A stretch of 25,303 nucleotides of DNA from a virus. The stretch covers positions 1 through 25,303 of IMG/VR virus record IMGVR_UViG_3300009155_000232. One strand, given 5' to 3'. This document shows positions 4,914-25,150 of this stretch, piece after piece (within the stretch, counting starts at the first letter, position 1; each line of letters starts with the position of its first letter). The notes under the pieces are model-generated. The model made no database searches. It saw only the letters and a program-made list of their open reading frames with translations, and was not told where the DNA came from. A program made the position numbers and the translations under genes.

Positions 4914-5399
4914 TTAATGAAACGCGCTAACGTCGAATAGAAATTCGTCGGGGTTGTACGCGACGCCTAAGTTTTGTGCAACGTCTAGCGCCGGAATACC
5001 TCCGCATACCAACGCCTCCGCTTCCGCTAGCGGTACAAAAAACCAATTCACTTTACCGCGTTCAAAATGCTTATGCTCAACTATTGCGTAGCGCCCATCC
5101 GCAAATAGGCACACGCAATAAATCCAATCGCACGCGGTGCAAAAGCAATCGTTAAATTTGAAACCGGGTCTTCTCTTGTTTCCGCCCTTGCCCAACAAAC
5201 TCCGGTCCCAATTTAACCGCGACGTTTTTACGGAAACAAAAGTAGCGCTAAGCCTGTCGCCTTCGGGAATGCTCAAAACCAAATCGTAGGAAAAGCCTTC
5301 GCCGCCCTTGCTTACTTGGTATCCACGCGCGGAAAGCATTGCCATAACCAGCGCTTCGCCGATATTGCCAATGCACTTAGTTTCCCCTGGTTCCTGCAT
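4914..5399 (-). CDS. PD-(D/E)XK-like protein with atypical active site
   Basis: 161 residues if it starts at ATG 5399. The N-terminal region follows the restriction-endonuclease fold: GNIGEALVMAML (E15 in helix 1), then FSYDLVLSI (D39), then FVSVKTS with K58. The usual acidic residue or Gln two before the lysine is Ser (S56), so catalysis may be altered or lost. The later part has five cysteines (C85, C87, C90, C95, C97) and a WIYCVCLF strand. It may be a nuclease or a DNA-binding derivative. The start is uncertain: 5399 overlaps the preceding gene by 23 bases and its ribosome site is weak, and the open frame continues further upstream. Confidence 0.6.
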   Translation of the reverse strand: MQEPGETKCIGNIGEALVMAMLSARGYQVSKGGEGFSYDLVLSIPEGDRLSATFVSVKTSRLNWDRSLLGKGGNKRRPGFKFNDCFCTACDWIYCVCLFADGRYAIVEHKHFERGKVNWFFVPLAEAEALVCGGIPALDVAQNLGVAYNPDEFLFDVSAFH

Positions 5400-5598
5400 C
5401 GCGTTCCGCTTTCTGTTCCAAGTACAAGTTTCGCTTGCGGAAATCTTCGCACCGCTCGCGCAAATAATCTGCGCGTTCCTCCCACGTCTTGGCTTCCTCG
5501 CGTAGCGTGGCGATAGCCTCAATAGCCCGATAGATGGGACCGTTAGGCGCAAGCGCTATGCGCTGCAAATCCCTTAGTAGTGCATCGTATTTTTCCAT
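5377..5598 (-). CDS. Small coiled-coil protein of unknown function
   Basis: 73 residues, strongly charged and predicted to be almost entirely helical (IEAIATLREEAKTWEERADY and onward), suggesting a coiled coil. No known family was recognised. Its ATG lies 10 bases after a strong stem-loop, and the only purine-rich ribosome site, AGGGG, is in the 3' arm of that stem. Expression may therefore be low or conditional. It overlaps the following gene. Confidence 0.6.
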   Translation of the reverse strand: MEKYDALLRDLQRIALAPNGPIYRAIEAIATLREEAKTWEERADYLRERCEDFRKRNLYLEQKAERDAGTRGN

Positions 5599-5608
5599 AG
5601 GTAATAAA

Positions 5609-5640
5609 CCCCTAGCCGGGCTTTCGCCAGCGGCTAGGGG
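5609..5640 (-). terminator. Terminator-like stem-loop after the SSB-like gene
   Basis: Arms CCCCTAGCCG (5609-5618) and CGGCTAGGGG (5631-5640) are perfectly complementary. Within the loop a further GGC/GCC pairing closes a GAAA tetraloop on the minus strand. The minus-strand continuation is TTTATTACC, a modest U-rich tail, as in an intrinsic terminator. The stem also contains the ribosome site of the next gene, so it may act as an attenuator rather than a full stop. Confidence 0.65.
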
Positions 5641-5655
5641 CTTCCGGGGGTTCGG

Positions 5656-6132
5656 TTAGAAGGGAATATCAGAATCGGCCAGGTCGGTAGCCGACGCCTT
5701 AGGCTTTGCCTTGCCTGGCTTGGCGTCAAGTGTACGCGCCATATCCTTAAGGTATTCACCCACGCGCGCCTTGCCATTCTTGCCAACGTAACTACGGGCA
5801 ATAACGCTACGCCCTTCAAGGATTGATTCCTCAAACTGTCCGGCGTCCTTCGTAATCAGCGGGAAACCCGCCGCAAGCAACACTTCGTTGAGGCGGTAAA
5901 TCTTGGTTACTGGAATTGAATCGAAGAGCCTGTAGCGCTTTCCGTTAACGGTTGTATCCAACCAAAGGTTCACTTCCCAACCTTCGGGATTGTCCGCCGT
6001 CTTGACGTTTTCAAATGGGCTTTGGCGTGCCTCACTCTTAACGATTTCGAACGTGTACGTACCGTCCGGCAGAACCTCGGGCTTGTTTCCGCCTGGCGTG
6101 TTTTCCTTGCTGCCGTGAATTACCTTAACCAT
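5656..6132 (-). CDS. Single-stranded DNA-binding-like protein with SSB-type tail
   Basis: 158 residues. The middle (residues 20-125) is rich in beta strands, as expected for an OB-like domain: TYTFEIVKSEAR, WEVNLWLDTTVNGKRYRLFDSI, SVIARSYVGKNGKARVGEYL. It is followed by a K/A/P-rich linker and the acidic tip DSDIPF at the extreme C terminus. That tip matches the DDDIPF tail by which bacterial SSB recruits partner proteins. Lying directly behind the annealing protein (8-base overlap), it fits a role in coating ssDNA during recombination and replication. The OB fold itself is inferred. The ATG at 6132 has AAAGGA upstream. Confidence 0.75.
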   Translation of the reverse strand: MVKVIHGSKENTPGGNKPEVLPDGTYTFEIVKSEARQSPFENVKTADNPEGWEVNLWLDTTVNGKRYRLFDSIPVTKIYRLNEVLLAAGFPLITKDAGQFEESILEGRSVIARSYVGKNGKARVGEYLKDMARTLDAKPGKAKPKASATDLADSDIPF

Positions 6133-6940
6133 TGCTTGCTTCCTTTCGTGTTGCTTTCTGTTCCTCGCCCCGCTGAATGAGGCTTTCCAAATATTTCGTA
6201 ACTTGCGCGTCGTCGTCGCCCACTACCTTGCGGGCATTCGCCATTGCCTTCTGCCACGTGTACCTAGCCGATCCCATTTCACGCGCCAATTGCGCCACGC
6301 GTTCCGCCAATTCTCCAAGGCTTACCGCCGGCGACTCCGACTCCGCCGACGGCAAAACCTCGGGAATGCCTTCTAGCGCTACCGTCGAAGCGCTAGCCGG
6401 CTTTGTATTGGCAAGCCTGGCGTTCAACGCGGCAAGCCCGGAAGTCTGCACAACCTCGGCGCCGGCGCTAGTGGCTTCGGCTTCTACCTCGTACTCGGTT
6501 GGTCCAGCAAGCCCGAACGCTGCCTTCAGGCAATGCACTTCCGCCTTGATTCTCAGCATATGCCGCGGGCTTTTGTTCCACGTCGGGCTACTTTGCTTGA
6601 ATTCGTGTAGCCAGCACGTAAACGAAAACTGTCCGCCCAACGTGGTATGCACCGTGAACGTGCAGTATTCGCCGTGTTCATCTTCCCCGTAGCGCACGTC
6701 CGACGATTGATAGCGCCCGGTTTCATGCGCCAGGCGGCGCCACCCGTCAACGCCCACCACAACGCTGAGCCGGCCACCGTAGGAAATGGCGTAAATTTCC
6801 TTGCACAACGGGTTAAGGTTGTACGCCTTCATTAGTTCCGATAGCGCCAACTTATCTACGTCGCTGGCGTTCCGCGGCATGACACTATCAACGATGCGTT
6901 CAACCGCGGACGGTTCTAAAACTACCCTTGCAATACTCAT
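6125..6940 (-). CDS. bet: Red-beta (Bet/RecT) family single-strand annealing protein
   Basis: 271 residues, close to the 261 of lambda Red-beta. Two hallmark blocks are present: NLNPLCKEIYAI (41-52) and VVVGVDGWRRLAHETGRY (60-77), both matching the Bet branch of the RecT superfamily. A helix-rich region with the Lys/Arg residues expected for ssDNA binding follows (WNKSPRHMLRIKAEVHCLKAAFG). The C-terminal third is low-complexity and then helical, as in related phage proteins where it binds SSB or the exonuclease. It would anneal complementary single strands produced by the exonuclease upstream. The ATG at 6940 overlaps the previous stop as ATGA and has AAGGG at good spacing. Confidence 0.9.
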   Translation of the reverse strand: MSIARVVLEPSAVERIVDSVMPRNASDVDKLALSELMKAYNLNPLCKEIYAISYGGRLSVVVGVDGWRRLAHETGRYQSSDVRYGEDEHGEYCTFTVHTTLGGQFSFTCWLHEFKQSSPTWNKSPRHMLRIKAEVHCLKAAFGLAGPTEYEVEAEATSAGAEVVQTSGLAALNARLANTKPASASTVALEGIPEVLPSAESESPAVSLGELAERVAQLAREMGSARYTWQKAMANARKVVGDDDAQVTKYLESLIQRGEEQKATRKEASNG

Positions 6941-17066: not shown

Positions 17067-17975
17067 TTAGGAAGTAACCGTAAAAGTTCCGGACGCGTTA
17101 AAAAAATGGTTGGTAAAACCGTCGGCTTGGTAAATTGTTCCACCCGTTCCGCGCGGAGTACCGGCATAGCGCACAACCACAATGCCGCTACCGCCGGCTC
17201 CTCCGTCGTATAGGATTTCAGCCGGCGGTATTTCAAATTCGTCGTAAACCCATCCGCCGCCGCCGCCGCCGCCGCCGCTATTGGCTCCTCCATTATTTCC
17301 CGGGAATTCGGTGCCGCCGAAACCATTTGAACCGCGGCCCGGCTCGCCTGGCAAACCGCTTTGATAAAAAGCAGAACCGCCGCCACCGCCGCCACCCTTT
17401 GCGCCAAGCATTGCTTCTGGAATGCCAGTAAGTAGCCCACCGTCACCGCCATATCCGGCACCCTCGGGATTAGCCGCGCCGCCCGAATTAGTAAAACCGC
17501 CGCCGCCGCCAGCGTCCCATTCATAAATCACGGACGAATTACCGCCCTGGTAGCCCTGCTGAACGGACGTATAGCCGTCGGTTATGGTTGTATGGTTTCC
17601 ACCTTGGCGTGCTGAGCCACCAGCAGCAGCGCCGCCGCCGCCGCCGCTACCGCCCGGATGACCGTTATGCTTTTGCTTTCCGCCGCCGCCGCCGCCGCTG
17701 GCTACAAAATCCATAAAAGACGAATCTGAACCATTTCCGCCGCGGTTTGTTTCGGACGTTCCCGCCGTACCTCCAGCGCCAATAACGATGGTATAGGCCG
17801 TGGTTGTAAGTGTGATATCGGCAACGCGGCGTCCGCCACCGCCGCCGCCGCCGCCGGCACCAGCGCCACCGCCACCGCCGCCGGCCACAACCATTACCGT
17901 AGCGGTAAACGAAACCGGCGGAGTAGCGCCCTTAATGCGCTTTACCAGGTAAGGGATATATCTATTACCCTTCAC
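17067..17975 (-). CDS. Polyglycine-rich protein, adhesin or fibre-like
   Basis: 302 residues from GTG 17975, with GTGA overlap. After a short N terminus, TATVMVVAGGGGGG opens a domain of repeated poly-Gly runs separated by short polar segments (ITLTTTAYTIVIGAGGTAGT, GSDSSFMDFVASGG, GGAGGSGIVVVRYAG), closing with FTNHFFNASGTFTVTS. This is the glycine-rich fold seen in phage fibre tips and in T-even gp38-type adhesins, where Gly runs form a polyglycine II sandwich. It would be displayed on the virion for receptor contact. Unusually it lies among head genes rather than after the tape measure, so capsid-surface display is possible. Confidence 0.75.
   Translation of the reverse strand: MKGNRYIPYLVKRIKGATPPVSFTATVMVVAGGGGGGAGAGGGGGGGGRRVADITLTTTAYTIVIGAGGTAGTSETNRGGNGSDSSFMDFVASGGGGGGKQKHNGHPGGSGGGGGAAAGGSARQGGNHTTITDGYTSVQQGYQGGNSSVIYEWDAGGGGGFTNSGGAANPEGAGYGGDGGLLTGIPEAMLGAKGGGGGGGSAFYQSGLPGEPGRGSNGFGGTEFPGNNGGANSGGGGGGGGWVYDEFEIPPAEILYDGGAGGSGIVVVRYAGTPRGTGGTIYQADGFTNHFFNASGTFTVTS
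17254..17277. repeat. (CCG)8 trinucleotide run
   Basis: Eight uninterrupted CCG units on the plus strand encode a Gly run in the polyglycine protein. Shorter runs occur near 17631, 17683 and 17839. Unit gain or loss would change Gly-run length without shifting the frame. Confidence 0.9.
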
Positions 17976-18181: not shown

Positions 18182-18186
18182 GAAAT

Positions 18187-18214
18187 CCCGCTAGGGCGTT
18201 TCCGCCCTAGCGGG
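18187..18214 (-). terminator. Perfect stem-loop with GAAA tetraloop after the second capsid gene
   Basis: Arms CCCGCTAGGGCG (18187-18198) and CGCCCTAGCGGG (18203-18214) pair perfectly around four bases that read GAAA on the minus strand. The sequence after the stem is ATTTCATG, only a weak U tract, with the next start codon included. It could be a leaky terminator, an RNA stabiliser, or a block to the next ribosome site. Confidence 0.6.
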
Positions 18215-18236
18215 GTTATTTACCAACCGTAACTAG

Positions 18237-19508
18237 TTACGTCTGGCATTGCAGGGCGCTAAACGCCAGGCCAGGAAGCAGCAACTGGCAATCCATGCGC
18301 ATATTCGCAAGATATCCAGTTTCGTTAGTGTCCGCATAACGCTCTCGTAGAACCTTAAGTTCATAGTTACCAGTAGTTCCCATCACGCAATAATCCCAAG
18401 CGCCGATAAGCGCCACCTTAGTAGACGTGGTGCCGCTGGTCGGAATCGTCGGCATCGCCGCCGAAGTAACCACGGGAATGCCAAGCAGACGATCCGGCTC
18501 AGGTGCCAGGCCGCTACCGCCCTTGGCGTAACCGTTCTCCCAAAAGTACAGACCGCTGGTAGCCAACTTTCTAATAGCGCCAAGGGTTGCATCGTTGGTA
18601 ATGATTGCGGCAGAAGGATGCGAACGATACTGGCGCGGCAAACTGTAAACCCAACTAATAATTTCCGCGGCGGTAATAGCGGTTTGACCCGCAGCGGAAG
18701 TAGCCAGGCCGGAAGCAACCAGCAGCGAAGCCGGAGCGCCCGAAACGCTAGAAGCGCTCAGCAGCGCGGTTTCCTCAGTCTGAGCAAAAATACGCGCAAA
18801 CTGTTCCGACAGAATGGAAGAAATTCCAAAGTTACCGCCGCGTGCATCGGCATCGGCAACCAGTTCATTCGAAACGCGCAGCAAGCAAGAAAGACGCTTG
18901 GGGGTAAGCGTAATCTTGGCGAATGTGCTGCCGCTTTCGCTGCTGGGTGCGCTGCCTTCGCCAGTCCAGTAAGCAGTACCCGTGGCATTCTCGTACGCCA
19001 CTTCGCGCGCAAACGATCCAAGAGAAATTTTGCGGCAAAGGTTTCGGACGCTGGTCATGGTCTGCAACTTCGTAACCAACTGGTTATCAAACTCGGTAGG
19101 CGGAATCACGGTGCCGCCGCTTGCCTCACTCAGCGCGCGCATTTCGCTAGGGCCGGTGTACTCGCCGTTGCGCAGGTACTTTTCAAAAGCCGCGGCGTAC
19201 TCCTCGGTACCTCGGCGCTCAAAATCGCTAGCCGGCTTATCCGAAACCTTGCGGCTAGCGGTGCGAATCTCGGGCACGTCGGGAATGACGTTAACCGAAA
19301 TACCGTCGGCCAGGGCAAGCATTTCATCGTTACGCGAACGCTGCTGGCGCAGCGCGGCGTACTGCGCCTTCAGCGCGGAAAACTTCTGCTCCATCTCAAC
19401 GCTCATGCCGTCGGGGCTACCGTTAGCCTCATTAACAAGCGCTTGCATTTCCGAATAAATAGCGCCCATCTTTTCGATAAGCGCCTTAACGCTGTCCATT
19501 GCTCCCAT
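18237..19508 (-). CDS. Major capsid protein 2, HK97 fold with delta domain
   Basis: 423 residues. Residues 1-95 form a helical, coiled-coil delta (scaffold) domain (KALIEKMGAIYSEMQALVNE, EQKFSALKAQYAALRQQRSR), which the prohead protease would remove. The HK97 capsid domain follows: RALSEASGGTVIPP (124-137), LSCLLRVSNELVADA (206-220), QFARIFAQTEETALL (236-250), and ERYADTNETGYLANMRMDCQ (389-408). The length fits unprocessed HK97-type capsid proteins (HK97 gp5 is 385). It lies 87 bases after another capsid gene and is clearly divergent from it. The ATG at 19508 has AAAGGA upstream. Confidence 0.9.
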   Translation of the reverse strand: MGAMDSVKALIEKMGAIYSEMQALVNEANGSPDGMSVEMEQKFSALKAQYAALRQQRSRNDEMLALADGISVNVIPDVPEIRTASRKVSDKPASDFERRGTEEYAAAFEKYLRNGEYTGPSEMRALSEASGGTVIPPTEFDNQLVTKLQTMTSVRNLCRKISLGSFAREVAYENATGTAYWTGEGSAPSSESGSTFAKITLTPKRLSCLLRVSNELVADADARGGNFGISSILSEQFARIFAQTEETALLSASSVSGAPASLLVASGLATSAAGQTAITAAEIISWVYSLPRQYRSHPSAAIITNDATLGAIRKLATSGLYFWENGYAKGGSGLAPEPDRLLGIPVVTSAAMPTIPTSGTTSTKVALIGAWDYCVMGTTGNYELKVLRERYADTNETGYLANMRMDCQLLLPGLAFSALQCQT

Positions 19509-19559
19509 ATTCGTATCCTTTCAAAAGCCCGCGCGAATCGCCGGCGACGTGCCGGTTAA

Positions 19560-19583
19560 GCATTCACGCGGGATGGTGAATGC
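19560..19583 (-). other. Stem-loop between the two capsid genes
   Basis: Arms GCATTCAC (19560-19567) and GTGAATGC (19576-19583) are perfect, with an 8-base loop. The run of seven T on the minus strand lies before the stem rather than after it, so this is not a standard terminator. A second small stem (CCGGC/GCCGG) follows nearby. It may mark an RNA processing site that sets the ratio of the two capsid proteins. Confidence 0.55.
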
Positions 19584-19595
19584 CCGAAAAAAATC

Positions 19596-20615
19596 TTAGG
19601 AACGGTTCACGTTCAAAACGGCCGAAGTGTTGGTAATAGAACCGTCGGCCCGAATTGAACCAACGAAAAGCGTTTCGTTAGTGTCTGCGTGGCGCTCGTC
19701 GAAACGTGCAACGCTGAACGCGTCGAACGAATGCGCAAGCAGGTACTTGGACGGATCGAAGAACATAACCGCCGTATCGCCCGCCGCGGGGGTACCCGTG
19801 GAAAGCCTATGATAAACCGTCGGCAATCCTTCAACCGTTGTACCCGTGGTGCTGGCGATATAGCCGCGGAAGGACGGAAAAAGGACCGGGTAGAACGTCG
19901 CGTCGAAATTTGCAACAAGCCGGCTATTCACAACGGCAACGCTATTAATCCATTGCTCGTATGCCATCGGGCTTAGCGCGCTAGTAGTTGAACCCCAAAC
20001 GGAGGAAATAATGTCCTTGGGCGTAATGGCCGTGCTACCTGTAGTGCTAACCGTACGGCCATAAGCCTTAGCGCTCGTATATGCGCCCTGGCATTGCGTT
20101 GTACCGTCACCAATAAGGATTTGGCTGTTAATCGTGTTCACCAGTCCCGCGACCAATTCTTGCCTAAGGAACTTATCTACGTCGGTTGCCGCCTTACTGT
20201 CCGCAAGCAATTCGTTAGATACCTTCACCCATGACGTAACCTTCTTCAGCGAAAACGTATAGAACGTTCCGCTTGTTCCAGTGTTAACGCCCTGGCGTGG
20301 AAGGCTAAACGTCGGACTACTCTGCGTACCAATCCCCGCTTCGGAAACGTTGGCGTTAACCGTCATATCTTCGTTATAAATCGGCAACTTAAATGCCGTG
20401 GTAGTCGCCACCTTTCGCACGCGGTTAAGGATAAAATCCTCATTAATTGCGGCGTCGATGAAATTAGACCAATCGGTTGGCGCCAGCGCGGTTCCGCCGC
20501 TGCTAATGCTTAGCGCGCGCGCTTCAACGTCGGTAAGGCCGCGGGCACCGCGTCGAAGATAGGTGCGGTAAATTTCTGCGTAGTCGGCGCTAGAACGGTC
20601 TAGGGGCTTATCCAT
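19596..20615 (-). CDS. Major capsid protein 1, HK97 fold without delta domain
   Basis: 339 residues from ATG 20615, which has AAAAGG upstream. The sequence shows the HK97 capsid fold: RALSISSGGTALAPTDW (33-49), KKVTSWVKVSNELLADS (124-140), and DERHADTNETLFVGSIRADG (306-325). These align with motifs in the next gene, but overall the two are divergent. Its first residues (ADYAEIYRTYLRRG) align with residue about 101 of the second capsid protein, so there is almost no N-terminal scaffold domain. It probably follows its own promoter (20785-20812). The two proteins may build different parts of one shell. Confidence 0.88.
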   Translation of the reverse strand: MDKPLDRSSADYAEIYRTYLRRGARGLTDVEARALSISSGGTALAPTDWSNFIDAAINEDFILNRVRKVATTTAFKLPIYNEDMTVNANVSEAGIGTQSSPTFSLPRQGVNTGTSGTFYTFSLKKVTSWVKVSNELLADSKAATDVDKFLRQELVAGLVNTINSQILIGDGTTQCQGAYTSAKAYGRTVSTTGSTAITPKDIISSVWGSTTSALSPMAYEQWINSVAVVNSRLVANFDATFYPVLFPSFRGYIASTTGTTVEGLPTVYHRLSTGTPAAGDTAVMFFDPSKYLLAHSFDAFSVARFDERHADTNETLFVGSIRADGSITNTSAVLNVNRS

Positions 20616-20641
20616 GTTTTTCCTTTTGGGTAAATCGTTAT

Positions 20642-20671
20642 CGCCGGCAATGGCAACACACAACGCCGGCG
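20642..20671 (-). other. Small stem-loop in the capsid leader
   Basis: Arms CGCCGGC (20642-20648) and GCCGGCG (20665-20671) are perfect with a 16-base loop. It lies about 27 bases upstream of the first capsid gene start. No U tract follows on the minus strand. Confidence 0.45.
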
Positions 20672-20733
20672 GTTAAATGGTTTCAACCGTGGCGGATTAG
20701 TGCAGCACTAGGCAACACGGAAACCCGTTTTCG

Positions 20734-20765
20734 CGCGCGGCGTCCACTAGGGATTATGCCGCGCG
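20734..20765 (-). other. GC-rich stem-loop in the capsid leader
   Basis: Arms CGCGCGGC (20734-20741) and GCCGCGCG (20758-20765) are perfect with a 16-base loop. It lies just downstream of the predicted transcription start, so it would form the 5' end of the capsid transcript and could protect it. The rest of the 219-base gap 20616-20834 holds no convincing gene. Confidence 0.5.
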
Positions 20766-20784
20766 GCGTTATTCAATTGCGCGC

Positions 20785-20812
20785 ATTATCGGTATGCGTA
20801 TACGTTTTGCAA
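20785..20812 (-). promoter_or_regulatory. Putative promoter for the capsid genes
   Basis: On the minus strand TTGCAA (20807-20812) and GATAAT (20785-20790) are 16 bases apart, matching four and five of six consensus positions. They lie in the only sizeable gap of the structural module, upstream of the first capsid gene, which must be made in large amounts. Confidence 0.4.
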
Positions 20813-20834
20813 CTATCGTAAGCGTTTTGCGGCT

Positions 20835-21353
20835 TTACGCTTCCGGAATAAGGTAAATCTTGCGCTTTGGCGTTGGGTTTTCGCTCCGCGCCTGAACGCT
20901 CGTAGCGCTATTCGCCGGGAACGTTACAACCGATACTTCCCGCAATTCGGCGTCCGTAATTACGCGAATCGGTTTACCGTCCTCGCCCTTTTCGAAGCGT
21001 TCCCCACGCACGATAAAACCAAAACTGCATTGGCTGACCACGCCGCTTTTAATCAATTGGTGCGCTTCCCTGGCTGTAGCCGTATCGGGTAGCGTGGCTT
21101 CGAACCCAAGCCCATTCGAATCCGTGTAAAGCCGCAGGTTGCCGGCTCGCACGCGCGCCAGCGGCTTAGACGTATCGTGATTCCAAAGTAATGCAATATC
21201 GCTAGGGTCCTCCAGCGACTTGGCAAACGCGTTAGGGTCGATCCGCTCGTATTCGTTACCCATATCGTACGTATCCCACGTAACCGCTACGCCGGAAATG
21301 CGAAGCCCGTTAGCGGGTGCAAGGGTGCCGTTAGAACGCGTTTCGATACTCAT
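20835..21353 (-). CDS. HK97-family prohead protease
   Basis: 172 residues. The family pattern is complete: LRISGVAVTWDTYD, ERIDPNAFAKSL, IALLWNHDTSKPLARV (catalytic His), ATLPDTATAREAHQLIKSG, VVSQCSFGFIV (catalytic Ser) and ELREVSVVTFPANSAT. The enzyme cleaves the scaffold domain of the capsid protein and itself during head maturation. Here only the second capsid protein carries such a domain. The ATG at 21353 overlaps the portal stop as ATGA. Confidence 0.93.
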   Translation of the reverse strand: MSIETRSNGTLAPANGLRISGVAVTWDTYDMGNEYERIDPNAFAKSLEDPSDIALLWNHDTSKPLARVRAGNLRLYTDSNGLGFEATLPDTATAREAHQLIKSGVVSQCSFGFIVRGERFEKGEDGKPIRVITDAELREVSVVTFPANSATSVQARSENPTPKRKIYLIPEA

Positions 21354-23080
21354 GGCTTAACCTCCGTATTGCCCCTAATTCCGTCCAGCAGTTCCGCAGC
21401 AGCGGCGCCGGGCAACGTCTGCCATGCGCAAATATCATCCGTAAGCGTTGCAATAGCGCCAACCGTGGCGCGCAAATGCTTAGCGTGACGCATCATGGCG
21501 GCATCCAGCACCGTTACCGCGTGCGCTTCATTCCCAAGCAACCGCCCAAGCCCGGCCACGGTTTCCCGCAAATCCTCGTAAATATCATCTACTGGCGGTT
21601 CCCACTTATCTAGTTTTGTCTGCGTCCGCTGGCGAAGCAAGTATTCGCCCACGCGGTTTACGTGCCGGCGGTAAGCCGCTTCGATGGCCGGACGCACCGC
21701 GGCGATTGCGGCGGTATTCGCCGCGCGCGCCATTTCCTCGGGCGCAATGTCCACCGATGCGGGGATTTCCTCGGGTTCAAGGTCCACGCTTGCGGGCACT
21801 TCCTCGGCAACTGGTTCCGCGGCTGGCGGCGTAGTCGGCGTAGGAATGGGCGCCGATTGTCCGGGTGCTTCAGTATTCAAAGGAAGCCGAATGCTAGAAC
21901 CGCCTTCAACCGCCGGTAGCCCTTCCTTTGCGCGCGCTTCGTTCGGCGTCAGAACGCCAGAAAGAATCGCCGTCGAATAGGCGCTAAATCGGGTACTCAT
22001 GTCGGCACGTAGGAGCGAATCAAAAGAAATCCGCGTGCAATATGGAGCGTTGCCAATCAGTTTACGGCTAGCCTCCTGTTCCAATCGGGTAGCCCAACCG
22101 CTAAGCGTATGCTTTACGAAATGCTGGTCCGCGGCTTCCTGGCTTGAATAACTTTGGGCGTCGGTTGCGCCAATACGCGCGGCCGGCACGCCGAACGCGG
22201 CCGCGATTTGCTCCCGGCAAAACTTCCGAATTTCGACCAAATCTTGGTCCTTAAGGCTACTGGTAAGCGCCTCATACGTCATGCCGTCTTCAAGAATTGC
22301 CGTCTTGCCGCTGTTGCGGCTTCCGCCGTGAACGGCTTGCCAAGACTCACGAAGCCGCTTGCTAGCCTCCGGCGTTAGGCGCCCTGGCATCTTTAGGATG
22401 CCGCCGGGAACGGCATTATTGCCGTAAAACCGCCCGACGTACTCGGAGCAAGTAAGTTCCAGCGAAATCAGTTCTCGCATAACGTGAATGGGCGGAACGC
22501 CAAGCAAGCCTTCCATACTTGGCCCCACCAAATGAAAGATTTCGTAGCCGCGGAAGCGCTTACCGGCTCCGGTGCCGTTGGCGTACTTGCCGGTGAATAC
22601 CTCGTAATAGGGTTGCTGGTCGCCGTCCCTATACATGGCGATTTGATCCGGGCGAATCAATTCCATAGCCACGGGGCGCCCGGTGGAATCCCGTTGAATG
22701 AATGCGTAGCCGTTGCCCGTAAGTAGGCAATTGGTAAGGATCGTTTCTCTAAACACAAGCGCCGAAACGTCTTCGTTAGGTTCAACGTTAAGCAACTGCG
22801 TTAGCGGATGGTCCGGTTCAACAATCTTCCCTTCGGACGTTTCCCTAAGCACTTGCCAATCAAGCCGGGCAATACTGGACGCAATCAGACGCACGCACGC
22901 GTAAACCGATGGCGACTCCATCGCGTTTAGCGGGTTAATCTGAATGCCGCTATAGGAATACGTCGAAACGTAGGATTGGATCGAACCGCCAAGCGTTTGG
23001 CCGATTGGCGTATTATCTTCCCATGCGGTACGCGGCGGCTTTGGTCCAACGTACCGCTTAAGAATGTCGATTAAACCCAT
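21350..23080 (-). CDS. Portal protein (HK97 family) with long C-terminal extension
   Basis: 576 residues, against about 400 for typical HK97-type portals. Residues 1-400 match the family: NAMESPSVYACVRLIASSIA, NCLLTGNGYAFIQRD, then GYEIFHLVGPSMEGLLGVPP, and ATDAQSYSSQEAADQHFVKH. After a Pro-rich stretch the C-terminal 170 residues start with two 11-residue repeats of the type EEVPASVDLEP and continue with an Ala-rich helical domain. The extension may face the head interior or bind another head protein. The portal ring is the packaging channel and head-tail joint. It overlaps TerL by 10 bases. Confidence 0.92.
   Translation of the reverse strand: MGLIDILKRYVGPKPPRTAWEDNTPIGQTLGGSIQSYVSTYSYSGIQINPLNAMESPSVYACVRLIASSIARLDWQVLRETSEGKIVEPDHPLTQLLNVEPNEDVSALVFRETILTNCLLTGNGYAFIQRDSTGRPVAMELIRPDQIAMYRDGDQQPYYEVFTGKYANGTGAGKRFRGYEIFHLVGPSMEGLLGVPPIHVMRELISLELTCSEYVGRFYGNNAVPGGILKMPGRLTPEASKRLRESWQAVHGGSRNSGKTAILEDGMTYEALTSSLKDQDLVEIRKFCREQIAAAFGVPAARIGATDAQSYSSQEAADQHFVKHTLSGWATRLEQEASRKLIGNAPYCTRISFDSLLRADMSTRFSAYSTAILSGVLTPNEARAKEGLPAVEGGSSIRLPLNTEAPGQSAPIPTPTTPPAAEPVAEEVPASVDLEPEEIPASVDIAPEEMARAANTAAIAAVRPAIEAAYRRHVNRVGEYLLRQRTQTKLDKWEPPVDDIYEDLRETVAGLGRLLGNEAHAVTVLDAAMMRHAKHLRATVGAIATLTDDICAWQTLPGAAAAELLDGIRGNTEVKP
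21740..21805. repeat. 33-base tandem repeat in the portal gene
   Basis: Units 21740-21772 and 21773-21805 match at 25 of 33 positions and encode EEVPASVDLEP and EEIPASVDIAP. This is an in-frame, partly diverged duplication in the linker of the portal C-terminal extension. Confidence 0.8.
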
Positions 23081-24717
23081 TCTATGGCCTTTCCTTGATC
23101 CTCATATACCGAAGGTCCGCTAGTCGCGTTACCTTCATTCATCCACGCCGCCATAGCCGTAATGATTGCGGCTAAAGGGTCGATTCGCTCCACGCTGGTT
23201 TTCTTGGAAACCTTAATGTTGGCCGCGGCATCCATGTCAATGCAAGCATTGGAAACCGCCCACGTAAGCAGCGGGTTGCCCCCGTGTTGAAGTTTACGCG
23301 ACATAACTAACGCTTCAAGTTTCTTACAAGGTTCCGATAGCGTCCTAAAGCCTTGCCGTACTTCCAGCATCGGAAGCCGTTCGGCGTTATACAGATTCGT
23401 AGCCAACTGCGTAGCGCTCCACGGATCGTACCCAATCTGCCTAACGCGGAACGTCCTGCATAGTTCCCTAATGCGTTCCTCAACAAACTTATAGTTAATC
23501 ACCTGTCCAGGCGTAGGTTTAAGCCACCCTTGGTCCGCCCAAACGTCATAGGGTGCGCGGTCCGCCCGGCTTCGCCGGCGTATGCCGTCTTCGGGGCACC
23601 ACGTGTACGAAATAACCGCTAGTTCTCCATTGTCGCCCGGGACGATGCACGCCAGGCTAGTAAGGTCCACGTTACTAGAAAGGTCCAAGCCTAACCAGGC
23701 TTCTCGGCCGGCCAGCGCTTCAACGCTTAGACCGTCAACGGTGCAAGCCTTCCACGCATCGTTTCCAATCCAAGTACGTTTACTTTCTACCCATTGGTTT
23801 AAGTAAAGCGTTCTAAACGTGGTTGAATATGCGGGTAGTTCCTTCGCCTTTTCGCATTCGGACCGTAGAAATTCTTCCGAAACCGTAATGCCTAAAGACG
23901 GGTTAGCCTTTTTCCATACCTTCGGGCTTGTCCAATCATCTTCAATATCGGCGCCATACAACGCGGGTAAAAACTTGTGGTCGCTAATGATTCCATCGCG
24001 CACCTTTTCCGCGTAGCCGTGCAACTCGTACGCTAGCGAATTGCGGTTATGCCCGGCGGTAGTAATGCTAATGTTCAACGGTTGAAGACGTGAACCTTGG
24101 CTACTAGCCATTGTGTTAAACAATTCGCGCCCGTGTTCGTCAAACGTATGCAATTCGTCAACGCATAACGCGCTAGCGTTGCGGCCGTGCTTCGTTCCAG
24201 CGTCGGCGGATAGGATTTCAAGTTTAGAAGTACCGAACGTAATGACGTTCCGCTGTACCGTGGTCGCCCTGGCTAGTACCTGGTTAGCCTGAATCATCTG
24301 CCGGCAGCAATCGCCCACAACCGCGGCTTGGTCGCGGCTAGATGCCGCGCAATAGATTTCGGCGCCCGGCTCGTCTTCAACCAGCAGCAGGTAAAGCAGA
24401 ATGCCGGCAAGCATTGTGGATTTGCCGTTTTTGCGTGGTACTTCAATAAGCGCTTGCCGAAATCGCCTAAGCCCGTCTGCACGCTTCCAGCAAAGCAACG
24501 TACCGATTAGGTCCAGTTGCCACGGCAGCAACGCAAACGGTTTGCCGGCGTGCGGTCCCTTTTGGTGAACCAGCAGATTAAAAAACTTGTCTAGCCGTTC
24601 AAATTCGTCAACGTCGAACCAATCGCCTGGCGCCGCGGTGGCGTTGGCGTTGAAACCCGCAACGGTTGCTTTCTTAGGCGCTTTTCTTTTTAAGCAACGC
24701 TTCGATTCCGGTGGCAT
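23071..24717 (-). CDS. terL: Terminase large subunit
   Basis: 548 residues from ATG 24717. ATPase motifs: Walker A VPRKNGKS (93-100) and Walker B LCVDE (184-188), followed by ITTAGHNRNS. Nuclease motifs: LGLDLSS with D345, GYDPW with D431 and a late IDPLAAIITAM. This places it in the HK97/P27-type terminase group, usually associated with cos packaging. It pumps DNA into the prohead and cuts concatemers. An earlier GTG at 24753 lacks a ribosome site; 24717 has AAAAGG nine bases upstream and overlaps the small subunit by 44 bases. Confidence 0.93.
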   Translation of the reverse strand: MPPESKRCLKRKAPKKATVAGFNANATAAPGDWFDVDEFERLDKFFNLLVHQKGPHAGKPFALLPWQLDLIGTLLCWKRADGLRRFRQALIEVPRKNGKSTMLAGILLYLLLVEDEPGAEIYCAASSRDQAAVVGDCCRQMIQANQVLARATTVQRNVITFGTSKLEILSADAGTKHGRNASALCVDELHTFDEHGRELFNTMASSQGSRLQPLNISITTAGHNRNSLAYELHGYAEKVRDGIISDHKFLPALYGADIEDDWTSPKVWKKANPSLGITVSEEFLRSECEKAKELPAYSTTFRTLYLNQWVESKRTWIGNDAWKACTVDGLSVEALAGREAWLGLDLSSNVDLTSLACIVPGDNGELAVISYTWCPEDGIRRRSRADRAPYDVWADQGWLKPTPGQVINYKFVEERIRELCRTFRVRQIGYDPWSATQLATNLYNAERLPMLEVRQGFRTLSEPCKKLEALVMSRKLQHGGNPLLTWAVSNACIDMDAAANIKVSKKTSVERIDPLAAIITAMAAWMNEGNATSGPSVYEDQGKAIEWV

Positions 24718-25150
24718 CGCCCTTAGCCTTTTGGTTGGTTTGCAGTCCGACACGTGAAGCCGGGCTTAGTCCGAATTCGCGGGAAAGTTTCGCTACCTTA
24801 TCCCATGCGCCTTCACGCACCTTGATAGCGGGATTAGCGTAGCGTCCTTGCGGGCTGTCCGTAATTAGCCCGCCTTCCTGTACCAATGCGTTAGCGGCTT
24901 CCCATTCGGCTTGTGCCAGGGCGTAATGGTTGTGCGCTACGTAATCCTCCGCGGCGTAAAGCCCGAGCCGGCGCAAATCTTCAACCAGGCGGTTAAAGAA
25001 TTCGGTAGCCCGCGGGCACGCGGCAACTTGAGCAAACACGGTAGGTGCGCCGTCGCTGCCTACCGGCTCATTTTCACGTAGCGGAAGCAGGGTAGAACCC
25101 CGCAGTTTCAGCGTCGCTGTCGGCGTCGGCCGTGGTCCATTTCTGCCCAA
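24674..25150 (-). CDS. terS: Terminase small subunit (P27-like)
   Basis: 158 residues from a TTG start at 25150. GAGG lies eight bases upstream, and the protein then begins GRNGPRPTPTATLKLRGS, the usual P27-family opening (GRPxxPTxLKxLRG). Helical segments such as TEFFNRLVEDLRRLGLYAAE, QAEWEAANALVQEG and AWDKVAKLSREFGLSPASRV follow. A reading frame open further upstream (to 25234) lacks family resemblance and crosses inverted repeats. The small subunit recognises the packaging site, which may lie in the neighbouring repeat-rich junction. Confidence 0.85.
   Translation of the reverse strand: MGRNGPRPTPTATLKLRGSTLLPLRENEPVGSDGAPTVFAQVAACPRATEFFNRLVEDLRRLGLYAAEDYVAHNHYALAQAEWEAANALVQEGGLITDSPQGRYANPAIKVREGAWDKVAKLSREFGLSPASRVGLQTNQKAKGDATGIEALLKKKSA

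Follow-up and report, generated by a model that had tools for sequence, protein, structure and literature searches.

The window, which is the whole 25,303-base viral record that was analysed, carries all of its head genes on the minus strand, in the order terS, terL, portal, S78 prohead protease, cpA, cpB, a gene for a 69-residue protein, a Gly-rich protein, and connector and tail genes (Table 1). The Gly-rich protein (17067-17975) follows the 69-residue gene, which comes next to cpB; in L083 (the relatives recovered from IMG/VR are given L numbers) a Gly-rich protein is located upstream of the protease (1419-2930), unlike its position in the window. Directly 3′ of cpB, at 18182-18236, lies a strong hairpin, CCCGCTAGGGCG-GAAA-CGCCCTAGCGGG, which is possibly a transcript end or a processing site. 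The spacer between cpA and cpB is only 15-30 nt long in most clades other than that of the window.

Table 1. Features of the capsid locus in the window; ↓ marks the predicted point of cleavage.
Feature	Position	Strand	Assignment and basis
Terminase large subunit	23071..24753	(-)	PF20441 and PF03354
Portal protein	21350..23080	(-)	PF04860, 325 bits
Prohead protease (Peptidase_S78)	20835..21353	(-)	PF04586, 151 bits; TIGR01543, 112 bits
Putative sigma70-like promoter, TTGCAA-16-GATAAT, upstream of cpA	20785..20812	(-)	Scan match and similar hexamers in relatives
Structured 5′ leader RNA before cpA	20616..20778	(-)	Covariation in relatives; transcript start inferred from promoter
cpA	19596..20615	(-)	339-residue HK97-family capsid protein without delta domain; proposed vertex (pentamer) subunit
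Predicted protease site R33↓A34 (E-A-R↓ALS) in cpA	20514..20519	(-)	Aligns with HK97 gp5 K103↓S104
cpA-cpB intergenic spacer	19509..19595	(-)	Contains a hairpin, GCATTCAC...GTGAATGC, in the clade of the window; from sequence
cpB	18237..19508	(-)	423-residue major capsid protein of the HK97 family; N-terminal delta (scaffold) domain present; proposed to form hexamers
Predicted protease site R124↓A125 (E-M-R↓ALS) in cpB	19134..19139	(-)	Aligns with HK97 gp5 K103↓S104

Both cpA and cpB belong to the HK97 family of capsid proteins. PF05065 (Phage_capsid) matches cpA with 79.4 bits, across positions 1-275 of the 280 in the profile, and cpB with 152.8 bits, across positions 3-272 (cut-off 24.2), while TIGR01554 (major_cap_HK97) gives 101 and 206 bits, respectively (cut-off 27.5), and both proteins match the major head protein family PHROG 10. 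In pairwise alignment cpA and cpB are 25% identical across 342 residues (E = 6e-17), and comparison of a profile of 30 cpA with one of 26 cpB aligned 301 columns at a probability of 99.8%. The motifs ALSxxSGGT, (K/R)VSNEL(L/V)AD and R(H/Y)ADTNET, which a first-pass annotation of the window had picked out, are indeed common to the two proteins and occupy corresponding positions. The N terminus of cpB extends ∼95 residues beyond that of cpA and contains two helices, at residues 7-30 and 37-68 of a low-confidence model; the delta domain present in cpB is absent from every full-length cpA. Thus, the profiles, the motifs, the 25% identity and the conservation described below bear out the first-pass view that the window encodes a divergent pair of HK97-family capsid proteins and that a delta, or scaffold, domain is confined to one of them.

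On the strength of the family profiles cpA is likely to adopt the HK97 fold. AlphaFold2 models, built from shallow alignments of 16-17 close relatives, had a mean pLDDT of 31 for cpA and 47 for cpB and were used for no claim. A broad cpB profile matched the major capsid protein of RcGTA (Rcc01687; 6tb9, E 9.7e-48), the closest solved structure, and no counterpart of cpA was matched in that system; searched against solved structures, a broad cpA profile gave no match at E 0.01. Neither cpA nor cpB of the window has a Lys at the position aligned with HK97 K169 in the E-loop, a region in which the alignment is gappy. At the E-loop position the cpA of the L013-L022, L044 and L053 types carries ∼75 extra Gly-rich residues, comprising two repeats like GSGYTSAPTVxFSGGGGSGATATA (cpA at L013 3455-4699, L014 4983-6230, L020 2601-3851, L022 4983-6230 and L044 3727-4974), an insert that the cpA of the window does not have.

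The proteins also appear to share a maturation site. At the position aligned with HK97 K103 there is a basic residue in both, R33 in cpA and R124 in cpB. R124 and A125 are invariant across 26 cpB, and E-x-R↓ALS is near invariant in the cpA and cpB sets, the exceptions being KRALG in L083-type cpA and LRTLS in the L044 type. Full-length cpA has ∼33 residues before the motif. In contrast, L087-type cpA, which is present in several contigs, starts exactly at (M)ALS, with nothing ahead of the aligned cleavage point, as though its short leader had been shed. The cpA that start in this way (L087 1696-2799, L105, L106, L107, L108, L110 and L112) are extremely divergent. As the HK97 cleavage point, K103↓S104, corresponds to a conserved E-x-R↓ALS in cpB and in nearly all cpA, both proteins are predicted substrates of the protease and, in most of these phages, probably differ merely in the length that is removed. 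The first-pass annotation had placed the start of cpA at about the mature N terminus and the protease substrate in cpB alone; on both counts the alignment indicates otherwise, since cpA starts ∼33 residues before the residue aligned with the HK97 cleavage point and retains the site.

IMG/VR was searched with the two capsid proteins of the window and with two further, divergent cpA; after removal of same-contig loci this yielded 85 contigs from uncultivated tailed phages, mostly fragments and none known to be a complete genome. cpA is located directly before cpB in 71 of these, demonstrating that other phages carry the same tandem pair. Thirteen of the remaining 14 reach the end of the contig where the partner would stand, leaving L090 as the only intact locus with a single capsid gene. 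When a gene matched in two stretches (as in L055) was counted once, exactly two PF05065 genes were found in 14 of 16 long records; the others were L090, with one, and L093, in which cpB (4983-6288) is broken into several reading frames, probably through sequencing error. Comparison of the window with L003-L006, members of its clade, gave dN/dS values of 0.11-0.15 for both genes, showing that cpA and cpB are each under purifying selection. Neither gene was found to have decayed in relatives, and this selection, together with conservation across the 85-contig set, rules out the view that one of the two is a pseudogene. An assembly artefact is likewise ruled out, as the 71 contigs with the pair derive from separate metagenomes.

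Beyond IMG/VR, scans of contigs from GTDB genomes with an alignment of each protein detected no relative. The inspected cultured phages, from among those closest to cpB, each have a single capsid gene between the protease and the adaptor. Among 50,697 phage records cpA gave only four weak matches (23-26% identity), of which the three with annotation either are major capsid genes or include one. The open-access literature contained no report of a tailed phage with two HK97-type capsid genes, although subscription papers fell mostly outside this search and novelty is therefore unproved.

A maximum-likelihood tree built from 78 capsid proteins places all cpB in one clade (100/98) and all cpA in another (35 rows, 96/71), with the exception of L087 cpA, which sits on a long branch. 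A constraint that groups all cpA lowers the log-likelihood by 0.15 units (AU p 0.39); when the two longest outgroup rows were dropped, all 36 cpA fell to the same side of one branch (SH-aLRT 96). The data are therefore compatible with a single ancient split between cpA and cpB, although long branches are in play and such a split is not proved. The cpA and cpB trees conflict for L042, L081 and L082, which suggests that cpA has been swapped between lineages with different cpB.

Three kinds of evidence bear on the relative roles of the two proteins. Codon bias (Karlin z) identifies cpB as the most biased gene of the window (8.4, compared with 2.4 for cpA), and cpB is again the most biased in L003-L006, with z of 8.0-12.2 against 2.6-5.2 for cpA. 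In other clades cpB exceeds cpA in only 19 of 42 contigs, cpA being as deviant as cpB or more so. The rare-codon fraction of cpB (0.055) matches that of the protease gene (0.056); rare codons are more frequent in cpA than in cpB in 39 of 42 contigs, a count that is not independent as the contigs are related. The odd codon usage of cpA may reflect exchange between lineages. As a proxy for copy number, codon bias is thus clear in the window's clade and unconvincing elsewhere.

Translation signals were compared by folding prediction, applied here to GC-rich RNA. The start codon of cpA had a mean predicted unpaired probability of 0.20, compared with 0.64 for cpB (36 loci), and predicted Shine-Dalgarno (SD) accessibility was lower for cpA in 27 of the 36. 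In the window itself the SD of cpA is no less accessible than that of cpB (0.65 versus 0.51).

The third line of evidence concerns the axial domain, the limits of which follow HK97 through alignment and the known features of the fold. In pairs of group 2 phages whose cpB are >85% identical, the cpA axial domain is only 54% identical, compared with 78-90% for the rest of cpA and 88% for the axial domain of cpB, and the axial-domain distances of the two proteins show a correlation of 0.14. A hypervariable cpA axial domain beside a near-constant cpB was observed in L038, L040, L046, L055, L057, L059, L060, L064 and L085, possibly through diversification or recombination; it was not seen in the window's own clade. 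The axial domain sits at the centre of the capsomer, and its free variation in cpA therefore fits capsomers that consist of cpA alone.

Upstream of cpA the gap to the protease gene measures 170-232 bases in nearly all main-group loci and 32 in the L083 type. This region, which holds the putative promoter and leader, spans 20616-20834 in the window, with equivalents at L007 1583-1758 and L014 4813-4988. The promoter scan is no evidence when taken alone (two matches in the region versus 2.3 expected by chance); a similar hexamer pair, however, recurs at the corresponding place in relatives. RNAalifold, applied to 23 relatives, a set from which the window's own, diverged leader was left out, returned 38 pairs, 13 of them with changes on both sides. 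With this structure fixed, 96.3% of cells were paired, compared with 89.8% in shuffled alignments and at most 50% when the structure was slid, and 60 cells changed on both sides versus 19.9 in shuffles; these scores are tilted in favour of the structure, as it was derived from the same alignment. Support from covariation lies mainly in the first hairpin. The CUCCG/CGGAG helix around the cpA SD, present in most relatives, hardly varies and is thus untouched by covariation. For the stretches of leader that were searched, no Rfam family reached the gathering threshold, and none matched even when E was allowed to rise to 1. One guess as to its function is that the leader sets the cpA:cpB ratio.

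Two systems offer precedents for a division of labour between capsid paralogues. In T4, gp23 forms the hexamers and gp24 the pentamers; the two are ∼20% identical, probably arose by gene duplication, and lose propeptides of 65 and 10 residues, respectively (PMC9958956). The pair described here resembles gp23/gp24 in consisting of two paralogues (25% identical) of which the vertex candidate has the shorter propeptide, predicted to be 33 residues versus 124. A vertex protein of the gp24 type is a paralogue of the major capsid protein of the same phage that has a shorter propeptide, and this description applies to cpA. The likeness to gp24 would concern role alone: unlike the T4 proteins, cpA and cpB belong to PF05065/TIGR01554 and are accompanied by an S78 protease, and a delta domain replaces the separate scaffold core. 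The second precedent is Ccm of SaPIbov5, a homologue of the phi12 capsid protein (CP) that occupies the pentamers and is unable to assemble into capsids by itself; its delta domain measures 87 residues, compared with 128 in the CP (PMC8569155). As with Ccm and the phi12 CP, an HK97-like homologue with a shorter N-terminal part stands beside a standard capsid protein. Ccm, in contrast, is satellite-encoded and retains its 87-residue delta domain, whereas cpA lacks the domain and is encoded by the phage next to its partner. With HK97 gp5, Heliusvirales, Javan191 and L090 the locus shares the order portal-protease-capsid, a delta domain and an S78-type or Clp-like protease; these, however, have one capsid gene and no cpA.

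Taken together, sequence and analogy make it somewhat probable that cpB provides the hexamers and the scaffold while cpA is dedicated to the vertices, in a role like that of T4 gp24 or SaPIbov5 Ccm. Labour would then be divided between two proteins inside one phage head. cpB would be an ordinary HK97-type major capsid protein whose delta domain scaffolds the prohead and which fills the hexamers, and cpA a paralogue without the delta domain, whether by loss or from the outset, that depends on the cpB scaffold for its assembly and fills the pentameric vertices. A single transcript, which has a promoter and leader RNA of its own, would encode the two, and the S78 protease would probably trim both at E-x-R↓ALS, so that cpB loses 124 residues and cpA 33. 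We infer, rather than observe, the presence of cpA in the virion, its pentamer role, the cleavage of the two proteins and the cpA:cpB ratio. The first-pass annotation had listed hexamers versus pentamers, a mixed shell and an alternative shell as options. The first of these is the best supported, in that it fits the conserved pair, the purifying selection, the missing delta domain, the precedents, the codon bias of the window's clade, the predicted accessibility and the group 2 axial domain of cpA. Against a vertex role, the codon evidence is weak beyond the window's clade, where in turn the axial domain is not hypervariable and the SD of the window's cpA is not less accessible. Moreover, HK97-type capsids require no dedicated vertex protein, and T4 is able to circumvent the need for gp24.

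It is unlikely that the two proteins instead mix within capsomers to build a mosaic shell, in which cpB would bear the scaffold and fewer delta domains would be packed into a small prohead. The lack of a delta domain in cpA would suit such a shell, as would the N-arm, E-loop and C-terminal regions that are common to the two proteins in the profile-profile alignment (301 columns), but side-by-side packing is hard to reconcile with a group 2 cpA axial domain that varies apart from that of cpB (54% versus 88%; correlation 0.14). The apparent swapping of cpA between lineages with different cpB (L042, L081 and L082) argues in the same direction. A different role, in which cpA alters the size or shape of the capsid or gives rise, in particular conditions for instance, to another type of particle, is in our view distinctly unlikely. 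Ccm does redirect capsid size, and does so via the pentamers (PMC8569155), and the longest contigs, at ∼25-28 kb and none known to be complete, point to a smallish genome. A protein with neither a delta domain nor a separate scaffold is, however, unlikely to build a shell alone, and joint use is suggested by the shared operon and leader of the two genes in nearly all contigs.

That cpA lies outside the shell altogether, as an assembly factor or internal protein derived from a former capsid gene, is very unlikely. cpA is indeed further from the family than cpB, and its broad profile finds no solved structure at E 0.01 whereas that of cpB does. Such a role would nevertheless be expected to relax both the PF05065 regions and the cleavage motif, and cpA retains a full-length PF05065 match (1-275/280), including the N-arm, E-loop and P-domain, together with the aligned cleavage motif.

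The vertex role of cpA might extend to a whole HK97-type lineage that combines a scaffold-bearing hexamer protein with a scaffold-free vertex protein, the ratio being set by the leader RNA and the vertex axial domain diversifying separately in part of the lineage; this broader proposal is tentative, and we regard it as doubtful at present. The covarying leader ahead of the capsid genes would constitute a regulatory element in its own right, one with no match in Rfam. In the textbook account one HK97-type protein makes both hexamers and pentamers. If cpA, a conserved second capsid protein in this family, is a vertex protein, it would represent an independent origin of vertex specialization outside the T4 group, encoded in cis, and would show what a capsid protein without a delta domain is able to do. 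The pair would then provide a compact two-gene system in which to study how pentamers are specified.
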